Positions 9,712 through 15,582 of a DNA stretch of 64,000 nt are shown in pieces. The notes beneath the pieces were generated by a model. It did not search any database. It was given only the letters and a program-made list of their open reading frames with translations, and was not told where the DNA came from. Both the position numbers and the translations under genes were made by a program. The stretch's first letter is position 1; each line of letters opens with the position of its first letter. Source of the DNA: Mumia sp. Pv4-285 (GTDB lineage Bacteria > Actinomycetota > Actinomycetes > Propionibacteriales > Nocardioidaceae); the NCBI RefSeq assembly GCF_041320275.1, contig NZ_CP162023.1, positions 3,224,001 through 3,288,000 on the forward strand, given 5' to 3'.

Positions 9712-9784
9712 GCCGTGATGACCGTCTTCGATGCGGAAACTCATCGGGGCCTGGCCGACGAACAAGTCTCCTAAGGTGGGTGGC

Positions 9785-10120
9785 ATGGCCAAGTTCCTGG
9801 CGATCTACAACGGATTTGCGGATGACTCGGACAAGGACGATCTCGATGCTGCGCGGCAGTCCGAGTTCATGAACGCATGGGCGTCCTGGGCGCAGGCCCA
9901 TCAGGATGCGCTGGTCGACCCTGGCGCCCCGCTCTACCGGAAGAAGCGTTTGACCGCTGACGGCGTCGAGGACTTCACCGACCCCAAGACCGGGTACGCC
10001 CTCGTCGAGGCGGCGAGTCACGACGAAGCGGTTCGGATCTTCTCCGACCACCCGCACCTCGGGCTCTTCCCTGGGAACTCGATCGAAGTGTTGGAGTGCC
10101 CTCCTGTCCCCGGCGGATGA
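9785..10120 (+). CDS. YCII-like small protein
   Basis: 111 aa, MAKFLAIYNGFADDSDKDD to VLECPPVPGG. The start resembles YCII/DGPF-like proteins (short beta strand, then a long helix AARQSEFMNAWASWAQAHQDAL), and the end GYALVEAASHDEAVRIFSDHPHL matches the strand-helix pattern of that fold. The DGPF motif itself is absent. An AAGGTGGG site precedes the ATG. It is divergent from another YCII gene 73 bases away, and the two may be distant paralogues. Function is unknown. Confidence 0.72.
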   Translation: MAKFLAIYNGFADDSDKDDLDAARQSEFMNAWASWAQAHQDALVDPGAPLYRKKRLTADGVEDFTDPKTGYALVEAASHDEAVRIFSDHPHLGLFPGNSIEVLECPPVPGG

Positions 10121-10127
10121 CGCTCGC

Positions 10128-12347
10128 TCAACGGACGTCCGGGGCGTCGCCGGCCCACGGGTCGTCGTGGCGTCCCTCCCAGGCGCGCAGGGGGTGGCGT
10201 TCGGGCGAGAGCGGGCCGATGTCCCAGGGTTCGAAGGCGTTGGAGACGTTGGCGAGGCCGGTCTGCGCGAGGTCGGGATAGTGACGCAGCAGGACGTCTT
10301 TCATGGTGGTCCCGTCCACCCACGCGATCCCCTCGGGCGTGTAGACCTCCTCGCGGAAGTCGGTGGTGTAGAACCGGTCACCCAGCAGCCGGAGCGACGC
10401 ATTGAGGATGAAGATCTGGAACAAGGTCTCGCCGAAACCGAACCCGGTGGGACGGTGCCCCTCCGAGAGCGTGCCGACCAGCAGGTCCATGTCGTCGATG
10501 TTGTCGTGCCCGTCAGCGTCGGTGCCGTAGACCTCGCGGAGCGTGGCCACGCAGTCGCGGTCGTCGGTGAGGGCGTCGAAGTCGGGCACGGGCTCCAGGC
10601 CGAGCTCACGGCGCAGCTGGTTGTACGACGGCACGCCACGCTCGCGATCGCGGTAGAGGTCGATGGCACCGATGTCGGCGACCGGAGCGCCCGGCACCGT
10701 GATCGCGCGCAACGAGTCCGGGTAGTTGTTGTTGACGAGCGCACACGCCGACTGCTCGCCCATCGTCCGTGCCAGCGCCTCGAACCCGTGCTCGGCCAGC
10801 AGCGCAGGCGACGCGGCATGGCGGGTGCGCTGGAACGGGACTGACGCCACCTCGTCGCCGTCGGCGTCGACGAGGCGGATCCGGTCGGGCAGCAGCGAGT
10901 GCAGACGGTAGATGCTGACGAACTCCTCCGACAGCCCGTACGTCGGGGCGTCGACGGGCGCGTTGCCGACGATCCCGCCGAGCTCCCGGCTGGCGATGGG
11001 GACATCCTCGAGCGCCTGCTTGCGTTCGCCGCCGAGCAGCGAGGTCGCCAGACCGAACCAGTTCGCCTCCATGCCGCTGAGCAGCGCCTCGTTCGGGAGG
11101 ATGGCAGGCGTCCACTCAAGGGTGTGGATGCGGGCGATCAGCGCGGCGTTGGCGAGCCGAGCGGTCTGGAAGAGCGCTTCGTCGTCCCAGTCCGGATAGG
11201 ACCGGGCGAGCTTGTCGGCGATGGCGTTGTGCTCGCGAGCGAAGAGCGTGTGCAGCATCGCAAGCCCGACCCACCAGTTCCGTACGAACCCGGACCGCTC
11301 GGTGCCCGTCTCAGGGTCGAGAGGGAGCGAGCCGTCGTCGTTCACGATCAGCCGGCCGCCGGTGTGGGCGCGCAGGGAGTGCTGGGTCTCCCAGTCGCTG
11401 CCGTAGACCTGGGACGCGTCCCACCAGTGGGTCACCTCGTTCAGGAACGTCACCGGCATGTCCCGGTCAGGGCCGTCGTCGCGCCGGGTCGGATCTGAGA
11501 GCGACCGGCGGACCTCGAGGTGGTCGATGCCGTGCTCTCGGAGCGGGTCGTCCTCGGCCAGCGGGATCGTGTCGGTCTTCCCGTCGAGGTCGGTGCCATG
11601 GCTGATCCAGTCGTGGTTCTGGAACTGGATCCAGGCCCCGCCCCACAGGTTGAGGAAGGGCATCTCGACCCGTGGGCCCTTGGAGGCGAGCAGCTTGCGG
11701 CTGACGTCGCGGACGCTCACGGGGTCGGTTGCGGGGTTGTCGCTCGGGCGCACGCCGGCAAGGCCCAAGTCGTCTCCGACGTTGCGGAAGAACCGCGTGT
11801 ACGCGGCCCCGACCATCGGGTCGATCCTCCCCGCCTCGTCGCAGGACAGGTCGTTCCAGCTGCCGTCGGCCGTCCGCCACCGTCGAGCGAACGTGGGCAC
11901 CTGCGACTGCGGCTCGGCGAACCCGGTCGCCTGACCGGCTGCGTACGTCCGCACGACGTTGTTCGCGAACAACGTCTCGCGCATGTGGGCCAGCTTGAGA
12001 ATCTTGACCGACGTCGACACGGGCCCCGGCAGATGGGCACCCGATGCGTACCAGTTGGTCCAGACCCGCCCGCTCGTGTGGCGGCCCAGCAGGCTCGTGA
12101 CACCGTGCAGGATGCCGGAGCCGACGGTGCCGAGCACCCGCCCGGCCGCGACCTTGGCACCGCGGAGGACGTCGGGGGGCGGCTGCGGGCCAGGTGGTGG
12201 AGTGCCGAGGTCGGGCGGCTCGATGAACGCGCCCTCACGCGCGACCCGCGCGACGTGCTCGGCGAACAGGGTCGCCTGGCGCTCGCCGCGGTCGATGCCA
12301 GTCTCCGCGTTGGCTGCCGTCAGCTCGTCGGGTACGTCGGTGGCCAT
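10128..12347 (-). CDS. Animal-type heme peroxidase / COX-like fatty-acid dioxygenase
   Basis: Heme-dependent peroxidase of the animal peroxidase-cyclooxygenase superfamily, 739 aa. The distal histidine is probably H245 in QFQNHDWISHG and the proximal histidine H483 in IYRLHSLLPD. Tyrosine Y480 stands three residues before it, as in the YxxH of cyclooxygenases and fungal and plant fatty-acid dioxygenases. The LFAREHNAIADKL segment near 370 and QTARLANAALIARIHTLEW are also typical. The catalytic tyrosine favours fatty-acid oxygenation over simple peroxidase activity. No signal peptide is seen, so it is cytoplasmic or peripheral. It is divergent from a lipoxygenase-like gene across 93 bp, which suggests joint regulation. 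Confidence 0.9.
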   Translation of the reverse strand: MATDVPDELTAANAETGIDRGERQATLFAEHVARVAREGAFIEPPDLGTPPPGPQPPPDVLRGAKVAAGRVLGTVGSGILHGVTSLLGRHTSGRVWTNWYASGAHLPGPVSTSVKILKLAHMRETLFANNVVRTYAAGQATGFAEPQSQVPTFARRWRTADGSWNDLSCDEAGRIDPMVGAAYTRFFRNVGDDLGLAGVRPSDNPATDPVSVRDVSRKLLASKGPRVEMPFLNLWGGAWIQFQNHDWISHGTDLDGKTDTIPLAEDDPLREHGIDHLEVRRSLSDPTRRDDGPDRDMPVTFLNEVTHWWDASQVYGSDWETQHSLRAHTGGRLIVNDDGSLPLDPETGTERSGFVRNWWVGLAMLHTLFAREHNAIADKLARSYPDWDDEALFQTARLANAALIARIHTLEWTPAILPNEALLSGMEANWFGLATSLLGGERKQALEDVPIASRELGGIVGNAPVDAPTYGLSEEFVSIYRLHSLLPDRIRLVDADGDEVASVPFQRTRHAASPALLAEHGFEALARTMGEQSACALVNNNYPDSLRAITVPGAPVADIGAIDLYRDRERGVPSYNQLRRELGLEPVPDFDALTDDRDCVATLREVYGTDADGHDNIDDMDLLVGTLSEGHRPTGFGFGETLFQIFILNASLRLLGDRFYTTDFREEVYTPEGIAWVDGTTMKDVLLRHYPDLAQTGLANVSNAFEPWDIGPLSPERHPLRAWEGRHDDPWAGDAPDVR

Positions 12348-12440
12348 GGCAACTCCTCATCAGGCCCGCCTGCGTCGACCGAGGGTCGTCAGGGATGCGA
12401 CTCATCCCCGACGATCGTGCTGCGCGGCTACTCTCGGAAC

Positions 12441-13979
12441 ATGTTGACGCGGCAGCGTTTCCGCCTGTACCGCACTATCCTGGCCGGCTTTCTCAGCGCC
12501 GGCTTCAAAGATCACCCCATCGAACCGCTGGCGCAACCCGTGGACACGCGGATCGACTACGTGTCCCATGACGAGCTGTGGCCGGACATCCCTCTTCCAG
12601 GGGTCCGGGTCGCGGCCACCTTCATCCCCTCCGACCATGCCGAACGGCGCGGGCTCAAGATCCGGGTGCAGATGCGACTGCGCCGTCTGCTGGTCGACCT
12701 GGCGCCTCCGGACGCTCCCCCGATCCCGGCCGACGAGCAGGCATTCCTCGATGCTGTATACCCGCGCGAGTTCGACAAGGCAGGAGTACGGCGCCCGGTG
12801 CTGCCGCCGGAGCTGCGCGGGCCGGACGCCGACGTGATCGCCGAGATCGCCGTCCGCGGTCCCTTCGGCTCGTTCCTGCGGCGAGCGACGGCGCAGGAGG
12901 TCACCGCTGGTGAGGCCGCTGAGGACGAGTACGTCGTGGACCTCTCGCACTACCTCGACCAGCCGGTGCGCGACGGTCTGGTCCGGCCCGGCGGCAAGGC
13001 CGTGCTGTCAGCGACCGCGGCGGGCCTCCGCACCCGTACGGTGATCCGCAGCGACGGCCTCGAGCAGGGAACCGCCCGCCGAGCACTGCTCGCGGCCATG
13101 AACGAGGACATGACGACCTTCCGCCACAACCTCTCGATCCACAACGTCATCCTTACCGACTTCGCCATCGCGACGATCAACGAGCTGACCGCCCGCCACC
13201 CGGTCAGGCGACTGCTCCAGCACACCTTCCACACGCTGCTCATCGGCAACCTCGAGAACTGCAACGCACACTTCGCCGGCGCCAAGAGCTTCGCGGTCAC
13301 CCTGTTCTCCCACGACGCGAAAGAGGTCGCCGCGCTCGCAGCGCGGCACCTGCGCGACTTCGACCTCCACAGCTTCACACCGGACACCCAGTTCGAACGC
13401 CACGGAACCACCGAGACGCCGTTCGACTACCCGTACCGCGACAACGTCCTCGAGCTGTGGGCAGTCAACCTCGGCTACGTTCGCGAGTACGTGGCGCTGT
13501 ACTACGCCAACGACGACGCCGTGCGCGCTGACCCCGACCTCGCGCGGTGGGCCGACGCGCTCGACACGCTGCTCCCCAACTCCGTCAGCCGACCCGACGG
13601 TGGAATGACCCGTGAATGGCTGGCCCGGGTGTGCGCGACGGTCATCCACCTCTCGACCGTCGAGCACGACATTCTCAACAACGTCATCTGGGACTACGGG
13701 ACGTTCGGGTTCGCTGTGCCCGCCGTGGTCCCGGAGAGCACCGACCAGATGGATCAGGTGCGGGCGCTGGACACGCTCGCGGTCCTGTTCGTGACCTGGC
13801 GCCCGTTCAACATGCTCCTCGAGAGCCACGTCGAGGACATGGCACTCGACGGAGCAGGACGCCGCGTGATGCTCGCGTGGCTGGATCGGCTGCGGACGGT
13901 GCACGGGGAGATGGAAGATCGCGGGTACGACCCGTCGCTGGCCTACCCGGCCAACTTCAACGTCAGCATCACCAACTAG
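12441..13979 (+). CDS. Lipoxygenase-like non-heme iron dioxygenase
   Basis: 512 aa, read as a lipoxygenase-family protein without a PLAT domain. The iron-ligand pattern is present: H229 and H234 in FRHNLSIHNV (HxxxxH), then HPVRRLLQHTF, and H409 with N413 in EHDILNN. Lipoxygenases end in an isoleucine whose carboxylate binds iron. Here the end is NVSITN, so the likely isoleucine I510 is followed by two residues. This may alter or abolish the fifth ligand. ATG 12441 is the first start after the promoter gap. It is divergent from the COX-like gene and overlaps the convergent DUF5995 gene by four bases. Overall similarity to plant enzymes is low; the motifs carry the call. Confidence 0.78.
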   Translation: MLTRQRFRLYRTILAGFLSAGFKDHPIEPLAQPVDTRIDYVSHDELWPDIPLPGVRVAATFIPSDHAERRGLKIRVQMRLRRLLVDLAPPDAPPIPADEQAFLDAVYPREFDKAGVRRPVLPPELRGPDADVIAEIAVRGPFGSFLRRATAQEVTAGEAAEDEYVVDLSHYLDQPVRDGLVRPGGKAVLSATAAGLRTRTVIRSDGLEQGTARRALLAAMNEDMTTFRHNLSIHNVILTDFAIATINELTARHPVRRLLQHTFHTLLIGNLENCNAHFAGAKSFAVTLFSHDAKEVAALAARHLRDFDLHSFTPDTQFERHGTTETPFDYPYRDNVLELWAVNLGYVREYVALYYANDDAVRADPDLARWADALDTLLPNSVSRPDGGMTREWLARVCATVIHLSTVEHDILNNVIWDYGTFGFAVPAVVPESTDQMDQVRALDTLAVLFVTWRPFNMLLESHVEDMALDGAGRRVMLAWLDRLRTVHGEMEDRGYDPSLAYPANFNVSITN

Positions 13980-14665
13980 CCCGCGGGGATCAGCAGCGCC
14001 CTCGACGTCATGCCCACGGTGTGCCCCAGACCGTCGAGGAAGCGGCCACGCAGGATCCTCGTTCGGCGGAGCGCCCAGATCGTCTCGGCGGTGACCCATG
14101 CGAGATCACGTGCCTTGTCGATCTTCCAGGTGCTGAGCAGGTGGACTATCGGGCCGACTCGATCATCGACCGCACGCCCTGACGCGTCCAGGAACGACCG
14201 CCGGATCGAGGACTCGACCTGGGCGAGGATCTCGTTGACCGTCTCGTAGTCGGCGTGGACGTCGTCAGGCTCGAGGCCACCCGTTCGACAGGTGTCGACC
14301 ACGGCGATCGGAAGGTCGTGCTCGATGTGCGTGTTCATTCCCGCGATGGCGTACTGGACGGACAGGCGCCTCGCGTCACGTGCCTCGAACAGTGGTCGCC
14401 ACGCCGGTGTGACCCGCCGCCCCGCCGCGGCGTCGTCGATCGCCGCCAGCCAGTGGTTGGCGAAGCCGACGTCGAGCGCGGCCATCGTCTCAGCGTCCCG
14501 GAACCGGGTGCCGGCGGACGCCGGATCGGCGATGACCGCCGCGACCCGCTCGGTGACGGTGAGGTACATCCGGTTGAACACCGCGACCCCGTCCTTGGCC
14601 GGGAGTCCGGAGTCGATGTCTCGCAGGCGGGAGATGACGCCGTCGACAGTATTCGGCAGGCTCAT
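13976..14665 (-). CDS. DUF5995 family protein
   Basis: 229 aa, matching by eye the actinobacterial DUF5995 family (function unknown): NRMYLTVTERVAAVI, FANHWLAAIDD, YAIAGMNTHIEHDLPIAVVDTC and SSIRRSFLDASGRAVDD. The NTHIEHDLP histidines may bind metal. The ATG at 14665 overlaps the stop of the glutamine amidotransferase (ATGA), so the two are coupled. Its 3' end overlaps the lipoxygenase-like gene by four bases in convergent orientation, with no room for a terminator, so transcription of the two could interfere. Confidence 0.78.
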   Translation of the reverse strand: MSLPNTVDGVISRLRDIDSGLPAKDGVAVFNRMYLTVTERVAAVIADPASAGTRFRDAETMAALDVGFANHWLAAIDDAAAGRRVTPAWRPLFEARDARRLSVQYAIAGMNTHIEHDLPIAVVDTCRTGGLEPDDVHADYETVNEILAQVESSIRRSFLDASGRAVDDRVGPIVHLLSTWKIDKARDLAWVTAETIWALRRTRILRGRFLDGLGHTVGMTSRALLIPAG

Positions 14666-15495
14666 GCGGCGAGCTCGGGTAGGAAGGGACGCAGCTCCTC
14701 CGAGCCGCCGTGGACGATGACGCACGTCGCCTCCGGGACCTCACGCCACGCGCCGCGCAGGTCGCCGAGAGGCTCGGAGACCACGAGCCGGGTGTCGTCC
14801 GACAGTCCGTGCAGCATGGGGTTGTCGGGGTACTGGTGGCGCAGTGTCGAGACGTCGGTGCTGTGGAACAAGGAGCGCGAGCGCCCCTCACTGGAGTAGC
14901 GGAACCCCCAGATGGTCTCGCCGTCCGTGGTCGCCACCGTCATCTGCACCGGAAAACTCACTCCGTACCGCTGCGCCGTCTCCTCGATCAGGCCGACGGC
15001 GCGGGCTACCGCGGCCGGCGGGTCCTCGGTGAGCCCGAAGGTCAGCGCGAGGAAGAAGAACAGCTCCGAGTCCGTCGAACCCTCGATCGAAGGGAACAGC
15101 TCCGGGTCCACCGCCATCATGAGGTCGCGCTTCATGACCGCGAAGCCGTCGAGGTATCCGTTGTGCATCCACAGCCAACGTCCGTGCCGGAACGGATGGC
15201 AGTTCGTCTGCTGCACCGGCGAGCCGATGGAGGCGCGGATGTGCGAGAAGACGAGCGGCGACTCGATGTGCATCGCAAGGTCGCGAAGGTTGCGGTCGTT
15301 CCACGCCGGTTCAGCACTGCGGAAGATTCCGGGGGTCCCCGTGCGGCCGTACCAGCCCACGCCGAAGCCATCCCCGTTCGTCGGCTCGGCCCCCAGCTCG
15401 GAGCTCAAGCTCTGCACGATCAGCGAGTGCTGAGGCTTGTACAGGAGCTCCTCGATGAGGACGGGTGAGCCGGAGTAGGCGAGCCAGCGACACAT
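14662..15495 (-). CDS. Class II glutamine amidotransferase
   Basis: Ntn-type glutaminase of the YafJ/EgtC-like group, 277 aa. The nucleophile is Cys2 after removal of Met1 (MCRWLAYSG). Substrate-binding elements include NGDGFGVGWYG near 55, FSHIRASIGSPVQQTNCHPF near 100 and WMHNGYLDGF near 125. It should release ammonia from glutamine, but no ergothioneine biosynthesis gene is adjacent, so a synthase partner is not visible. ATG 15495 with an AGGAGGG site fixes the start. It forms an operon with DUF5995. Confidence 0.88.
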   Translation of the reverse strand: MCRWLAYSGSPVLIEELLYKPQHSLIVQSLSSELGAEPTNGDGFGVGWYGRTGTPGIFRSAEPAWNDRNLRDLAMHIESPLVFSHIRASIGSPVQQTNCHPFRHGRWLWMHNGYLDGFAVMKRDLMMAVDPELFPSIEGSTDSELFFFLALTFGLTEDPPAAVARAVGLIEETAQRYGVSFPVQMTVATTDGETIWGFRYSSEGRSRSLFHSTDVSTLRHQYPDNPMLHGLSDDTRLVVSEPLGDLRGAWREVPEATCVIVHGGSEELRPFLPELAA

Positions 15496-15582
15496 GATGC
15501 CCTCCTGCGGATAGCCGTCCGTTTCATGATGACCTCGATGGAGGCGGTCTGGGTCATCCATCGCGGGTGAATGCCCGGCGCA

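Follow-up and report, generated by a model that had tools for sequence, protein, structure and literature searches.

A conserved gene pair of an alpha-dioxygenase family protein and a divergent short lipoxygenase family protein in Mumia and Nocardioides

Do two neighboring, divergently oriented genes for lipid-oxidizing enzymes in an actinobacterial genome belong together, and which enzymes do they encode? The genes lie in a stretch of 64,000 nucleotides from Mumia sp. Pv4-285 (contig NZ_CP162023.1, positions 3,224,001 to 3,288,000 of the forward strand; hereafter the window), where the initial annotation had placed a cyclooxygenase (COX)-like heme dioxygenase and a lipoxygenase-like protein on one divergent promoter and had proposed that both oxygenate unsaturated fatty acids. 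Both open reading frames (ORFs), the 93-bp gap between them, the Y480/H483 pair of the heme protein and the H229/H234/H409/N413 ligand pattern of its neighbor are present as claimed (Table 1). Judged from its sequence, the heme protein is a member of the fatty-acid alpha-dioxygenase (alpha-DOX) family, and we assign its partner to the lipoxygenase family as a divergent short member. The conserved unit is these two genes.

The heme protein scored 331 bits against PF03098 (cut-off 25). Among solved structures its nearest relatives are the alpha-DOX enzymes of rice (4kvj, 313 bits) and Arabidopsis (4hhr, 304 bits), followed by a lactoperoxidase entry (120 bits), peroxinectin A (83 bits), the dual oxidases (64-65 bits) and COX-2 (57 bits). 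The COX-like label was given up on the basis of this ranking and of the kept equivalents of alpha-DOX residues H311, T316 and R559. PMC8720084 describes the roles of H157, H311, T316, Y379, H382 and R559 in alpha-DOX, and Table 1 gives their counterparts in the window; those of H311, R559 and T316 are also kept in the homologs from Nocardioides agariphilus, another Mumia genome (G001), Calothrix and one Streptomyces plasmid. In addition, W412, A428, F643, F646, I647 and A650 of the window protein correspond to rice W315, A331, F549, F552, I553 and A556, whereas the position of rice M325 is occupied by Leu in the alignment. Alpha-DOX chemistry is likely to follow from the residues that are kept. 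Since characterized alpha-DOX relatives oxygenate saturated acids at the alpha carbon, a common unsaturated substrate for the two enzymes is not required.

The same paper reports that CalDOX is an active alpha-DOX with a preference for C10-C14 acids. It also reports alpha-DOX sequences in Actinobacteria, so that an alpha-DOX by itself is not new there. We take a Calothrix sp. PCC 6303 plasmid protein (L052), which is 41% identical to the window alpha-DOX, to be CalDOX because H131, H290, T295, Y358, H361, F522 and R529 stand at the positions that the paper gives for CalDOX. At its N terminus the window protein is about 100 residues longer, and it has short inserts near residues 170-205; both features are common to the N. 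agariphilus protein and absent from those of G001 and CalDOX. NCBIfam models, at an E-value of 0.01, matched neither the heme protein nor its partner.

A lipoxygenase model match for the partner had been named as a check, and the protein scored 41.9 bits against PF00305 (cut-off 23.6; E 6.4e-11). Its best single match in the PDB was 8x8f with 62 bits, a four-row profile reached E 3.5e-20, and every one of the 53 distinct PDB sequences matched is named lipoxygenase. Comparison by hhalign with four plasmid lipoxygenases, at 21-27% identity, gave a probability of 99.1%. The first 200 residues matched no Pfam family. Both side-chain ligand pairs are retained in all relatives (Table 1), whose C-terminal ends read SITN, SITN, SITN and SISN. 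From an aligned Pro to the C terminus there are 10 residues in these relatives and the same number in five other bacterial lipoxygenases, four of which (two from Rhodococcus and those from Acaryochloris and Pantoea) end in Ile and one (Nostoc) in Gly. PMC3669278 and PMC11011848 count the C-terminal carboxylate or Ile among the metal ligands of plant and rabbit lipoxygenases. Lipoxygenase chemistry is probable for the window protein, although we are less sure of it than of alpha-DOX chemistry. The conserved C-terminal Asn bears on whether Ile is needed as the last residue of a lipoxygenase.

The functional link between the two enzymes had been put forward as an inference, and it gains real support from the conservation of the pair, whose absence from related genomes had been named as a refutation and was not what we observed. 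An alpha-DOX gene lies next to the lipoxygenase gene in all four loci found for this lipoxygenase clade, namely the window, M. xiangluensis NEAU-KD1 (L005), N. agariphilus (L006) and G001 (L027). In three of these the genes are divergent, with gaps of 93 bp in the window, 94 bp in M. xiangluensis and 59 bp in N. agariphilus, the last figure presuming that the alpha-DOX gene starts at the ATG at L006:9941. In G001 both genes lie on the same strand, with the lipoxygenase gene second and its start codon overlapping the stop codon of alpha-DOX in a 4-bp ATGA. As one of the four loci has both genes on one strand, a shared divergent promoter is not a general rule; the gap claimed for the window stands, but no sigma-70-type site was found in a promoter scan of 12250-12540, other promoter types being outside the reach of that scan. 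Identities to the window fall in parallel for the two proteins, from 96% (lipoxygenase) and 95% (alpha-DOX) in M. xiangluensis through 63% and 69% in N. agariphilus to 45% and 39-44% in G001. The N. agariphilus pair is therefore nearer to that of the window than is the pair of the same-genus G001, which suggests transfer.

The lipoxygenase is very rare. The 4.65-Mb host genome (G000) has no other PF00305 match, and this lipoxygenase occurs in three of six genomes of the genus and in the same three among 341 of the family. A single scan of genome contigs added N. agariphilus as the sole further organism. In wider samples, PF00305 was matched in 1 of 394 genomes of the class, and the four-row profile in 1 of 296 of the phylum and 2 of 391 of the order; each of these overlapping samples includes the window's own genome. 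Alpha-DOX matches were found in 29 of the 341 family genomes, 26 of them near full length; in the other three the gene is cut by a contig end (G280), fragmented (G254) or only weakly matched (G329, 27.6 bits), the last perhaps being another heme peroxidase. All three lipoxygenase genomes of the family also have alpha-DOX, for which hand arithmetic gives a chance probability of about 6e-4 if genomes are independent, whereas the actual three belong to one genus and two of them are nearly identical.

Between the window and L005, the ratio of nonsynonymous to synonymous substitution rates (dN/dS) is 0.13 for the lipoxygenase and 0.11 for alpha-DOX, and both genes are under purifying selection; against L006 the values are 0.31 and 0.35. 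In a 27-row alpha-DOX tree, which takes in 20 of the 29 family genomes and leaves out G103 (L040) and eight others, the sequences from the window, M. xiangluensis and N. agariphilus cluster together (100/100). The G001 sequence stands apart from these three on an unresolved backbone, and the four paired alpha-DOX sequences were united in 0% of 200 bootstrap trees. Two independent pairings are nevertheless not established, because a tree constrained to join the four was not rejected (see below), and the tandem form of G001 may be a rearrangement after one origin and not a second pairing.

On balance we favor reading the gene pair as a small oxylipin module that is shared horizontally and whose enzymes would form fatty-acid hydroperoxides at two different carbons. 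In this scheme, peroxide would oxidize the alpha-DOX heme, H408 and R653 would hold the fatty acid, and the Tyr480 radical would abstract a hydrogen from its alpha carbon. Addition of O2 would give a 2-hydroperoxy acid, to be converted to an aldehyde one carbon shorter or reduced to a 2-hydroxy acid. The lipoxygenase, with H229, H234, H409, N413 and the C-terminal carboxylate of Asn512 as predicted metal ligands, would add a second, mid-chain hydroperoxide to an unsaturated acid. The conserved pairing suggests that both activities are used together, which may be why the genes stay together. Alpha-DOX and lipoxygenases generally need peroxide for activation, and from this we infer a plausible mutual priming, in which each enzyme would make a lipid hydroperoxide that activates the other. 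It is tempting to extend this to a double-dioxygenase cassette that moves between actinobacteria, with mutually primed enzymes, with fatty acids oxygenated at both the alpha and a mid-chain carbon, or short aldehydes, that act as signals or weapons, and with a lipoxygenase subclass with an Asn carboxylate ligand, but this extension is tentative and on the unlikely side. The conserved pair hints at which enzymes cooperate, and a system of two genes is open to expression and assay.

Several observations weigh against a cooperating module. Only four loci were found, two of them near copies. Of the 29 family genomes that match alpha-DOX, 26 have no detectable lipoxygenase, which indicates that alpha-DOX works without one. 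Simple dN/dS values between the window and G001 are 0.56 for the lipoxygenase and 0.80 for alpha-DOX, probably inflated by saturation. Constraining the four alpha-DOX sequences to group together gave p values of 0.23 (27 rows) and 0.20 (24 rows, from which the long branches of rice, L038 and Qingshengfaniella were dropped) in the approximately unbiased (AU) test. As for the lipoxygenase itself, its PDB matches span only about residues 204-430, the C-terminal Asn leaves its chemistry less settled, and the Gly/Ala of the Coffa site could not be placed in alignments that are ambiguous there by one or two columns. An AlphaFold model of alpha-DOX from a three-row alignment, with a predicted local distance difference test (pLDDT) score of 31.4, was discarded. 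The lipoxygenase model, likewise from three rows, was poor (pLDDT 47.7) and lends weak support: in a Foldseek search with it, the best 50 of 284 matches were all lipoxygenases, at query-normalized template modeling (TM) scores of 0.33-0.39 and, within the same 50, identities of 16-20% to 5med, 8x8f and 5ir5.

These points leave room for other explanations. The lipoxygenase-fold protein could act on the alpha-DOX product, or the reverse, in a sequential pathway that does not use free polyunsaturated acids. Five of the ten scanned neighbors of alpha-DOX genes elsewhere in the family are candidate second-step enzymes (cytochrome P450 or acyl-CoA oxidase), the unusual C terminus and the Coffa residue that is not readily placed would fit a changed role, and Actinobacteria are not known for polyunsaturated acids. 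On the other hand, no relative has lost any of the four side-chain metal ligands, as is expected of a lipoxygenase, and the genome has three matches to the fatty-acid desaturase family, which leave room for polyenoic acids of the organism's own. We regard such a pathway as unlikely. Slightly less probable again is that the two enzymes serve separate functions, alpha-DOX in alpha-oxidation and the lipoxygenase on foreign polyunsaturated acids, and are neighbors through co-transfer only. Alpha-DOX is indeed the commoner gene and mostly occurs without this lipoxygenase, and no peroxidase-family gene is annotated within 6-7 kb of the distant plasmid lipoxygenases of Rhodococcus, Nostoc, Acaryochloris and Pantoea in the incomplete gene tables of those records. 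Against this explanation, adjacency is maintained in two arrangements, one with a stop/start overlap, amid differing surrounding genes. If the pair did reflect co-transfer alone, it would be an ordinary pair of lipid oxidation genes. A true cyclooxygenase-like activity of the heme enzyme, with prostaglandin-type products, is very improbable: the Tyr-x-x-His motif and PF03098 are common to this protein and COX, but COX-2 ranks below even the lactoperoxidase entry and peroxinectin A, and the carboxylate-binding and alpha-carbon-positioning residues are those of alpha-DOX.

The oxylipin module that we favor has partial counterparts elsewhere. Both enzyme kinds are known, and the apparently undescribed part is their pairing together with the conserved C-terminal Asn; in the openly licensed literature, a restriction that makes the result weak evidence of absence, no paper on a bacterial alpha-DOX/lipoxygenase pair (judged by title and the start of the abstract), no description of this Asn and no pathway assigned to the known bacterial alpha-DOX were found. 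No signaling role is known for such a bacterial pair, and the alpha-DOX and lipoxygenase genes of plants are not known to make up a two-gene unit. Plants likewise have both enzyme kinds in one organism, where alpha-DOX and lipoxygenases initiate oxylipin synthesis (PMC4490225 and PMC8358658). The window alpha-DOX resembles CalDOX and the rice and Arabidopsis enzymes in its heme ligands, radical Tyr, carboxylate-binding His and Arg and alpha-carbon Thr, and differs from them in its lipoxygenase gene partner, N-terminal extension and inserts. The lipoxygenase shares H-x4-H, H-x3-N and the lack of a PLAT match with the single-domain enzymes of Cyanothece (CspLOX2, 5med), Enhygromyxa (8x8f) and Pseudomonas (PA-LOX, 5ir5); it differs in its low identity, in its terminal Asn in place of the usual Ile and in its alpha-DOX partner. 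The diol synthase operon PA2077/PA2078 of Pseudomonas aeruginosa, which is described as encoding periplasmic members of the di-heme cytochrome c peroxidases (PMC5155153), is also a two-gene bacterial unit in which heme enzymes make oxylipins from fatty acids, but it comprises those two genes only, without a lipoxygenase. Likewise, the 10S-DOX of Nostoc punctiforme, a linoleate/oleate dioxygenase reported to be closer to COX than fungal enzymes are, is a bacterial heme dioxygenase that works with a second oxylipin enzyme, although its separate partner is a catalase-related hydroperoxide lyase (PMC13049297).

Table 1. Features of the alpha-DOX/lipoxygenase locus (positions in the window; relatives include the window)
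Feature	Position	Strand	Remarks
Alpha-DOX family protein gene, 739 aa	10128..12347	-	PF03098 331 bits; nearest is rice alpha-DOX
R653 codon, equivalent of carboxylate-binding R559	10389..10391	-	Alignment
Y480 to H483 codons (YRLH), radical tyrosine and proximal heme ligand (rice Y379, H382)	10899..10910	-	Alignment
H408 to T413 codons (HTLEWT), equivalents of H311 (carboxylate) and T316 (alpha-carbon positioning)	11109..11126	-	Alignment
H245 codon, equivalent of rice distal heme ligand H157	11613..11615	-	Alignment
Divergent intergenic gap, 93 bp between start codons	12348..12440		
Short lipoxygenase family protein gene, 512 aa	12441..13979	+	PF00305 41.9 bits; no PLAT domain match
H229 to H234 codons (H-x4-H), first metal-ligand pair	13125..13142	+	4/4 relatives
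H409 to N413 codons (H-x3-N), second metal-ligand pair	13665..13679	+	4/4 relatives
N512 codon, C-terminal residue	13974..13976	+	Asn in 4/4 relatives
DUF5995 gene (PF19458, 201 bits)	13976..14725	-	Neighbor, judged outside the module
Class-II glutamine amidotransferase gene	14662..15561	-	Neighbor, judged outside the module

The DUF5995 and amidotransferase genes had been noted as neighbors of the pair, and their Pfam matches bear this out; the amidotransferase scored 39 bits against PF13230 (cut-off 23) and 166.5 bits against the EgtC equivalog model, below its cut-off of 218.65. They do not, however, travel with the pair. Apart from the window they follow it only in M. xiangluensis, within a 5.4-kb block of 93.5% identity, and they are not beside it in N. 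agariphilus or G001. G001 has a DUF5995 gene (66%) about 1.1 Mb away on the contig that carries the pair, and nothing in that genome matches the amidotransferase. Both were accordingly rejected as parts of the module, and their presence next to it is incidental. A 129-aa ORF at 9731-10120 on the forward strand is convergent with the alpha-DOX gene and stops 7 bp from its stop codon; Pfam and NCBIfam gave no match for it at an E-value of 0.01, and except for its last bases it lies outside the block that the window has in common with M. xiangluensis.

Presence of the locus differs among genomes of the genus. G004, which belongs to it and lacks the pair, has at L071:9205-9929 a match to the YCII gene flanking the locus in the window and, 83 bp from this match, only a short, 244-column remnant of the junction between the amidotransferase and DUF5995 genes; in the window, the pair and DUF5995 stand in between. 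The N. agariphilus pair has next to it (L006:11546-15257) genes for a histidine phosphatase, an APH-type phosphotransferase, a short-chain dehydrogenase and an acyl-CoA dehydrogenase, possibly a set for hydroxyacyl-CoA breakdown, or there by chance.

At 17 other loci of the family, 99 predicted genes lie no more than three places away from alpha-DOX, and ten of these were scanned with Pfam. A P450 gene is directly adjacent to alpha-DOX at L029:2753-4186, L034:10036-11361 and L037:10345-11658, and an acyl-CoA oxidase gene at L036:6505-8451 and L043:10052-11977. The five remaining scanned neighbors were a serine dehydratase (L044), an HlyD-type protein, a LigD primase, a DNA ligase and one without a match. 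Among plasmid records, 21 matched alpha-DOX and seven the lipoxygenase, of which six and five, respectively, were examined; one of the six, L053, carries no annotation. The alpha-DOX genes of Streptomyces sp. NBC_00069 (L051), Calothrix (L052) and Phyllobacterium (L057) have nearby genes for patatin-like lipases, benzoylformate-decarboxylase-like or other thiamine pyrophosphate (TPP) enzymes, FAD-linked or GMC-type oxidases or a P450, as if these neighborhoods were alpha-oxidation gene sets. Cytochrome c genes are found near the plasmid alpha-DOX of Rhizobium and Qingshengfaniella. The Rhizobium (L054:5936-8764) and Phyllobacterium (L057:4774-7623) proteins have 942 and 949 aa, and some 350-410 residues precede the region that the window protein matches in them. 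In bacteria, then, the second enzyme that accompanies alpha-DOX appears to vary, and in this clade it is a lipoxygenase.

The plasmid lipoxygenases have surroundings of their own. In two Rhodococcus qingshengii plasmids (L047 and L048), the gene for a 699-aa lipoxygenase is flanked by one gene with an acyl-ACP thioesterase domain and one of the YncE family, possibly another lipoxygenase gene set. The Nostoc cf. commune gene for the lipoxygenase ending in Gly (L049:6143-7984) overlaps a convergent gene at its 3' end, and the C terminus of this protein may have been altered. In a Pantoea ananatis plasmid, a 598-aa lipoxygenase (L055:5182-6978) lies between a hypothetical gene and genes annotated as lysozyme and lysis protein, and genes for Ig-like-domain proteins are found further out on both sides.

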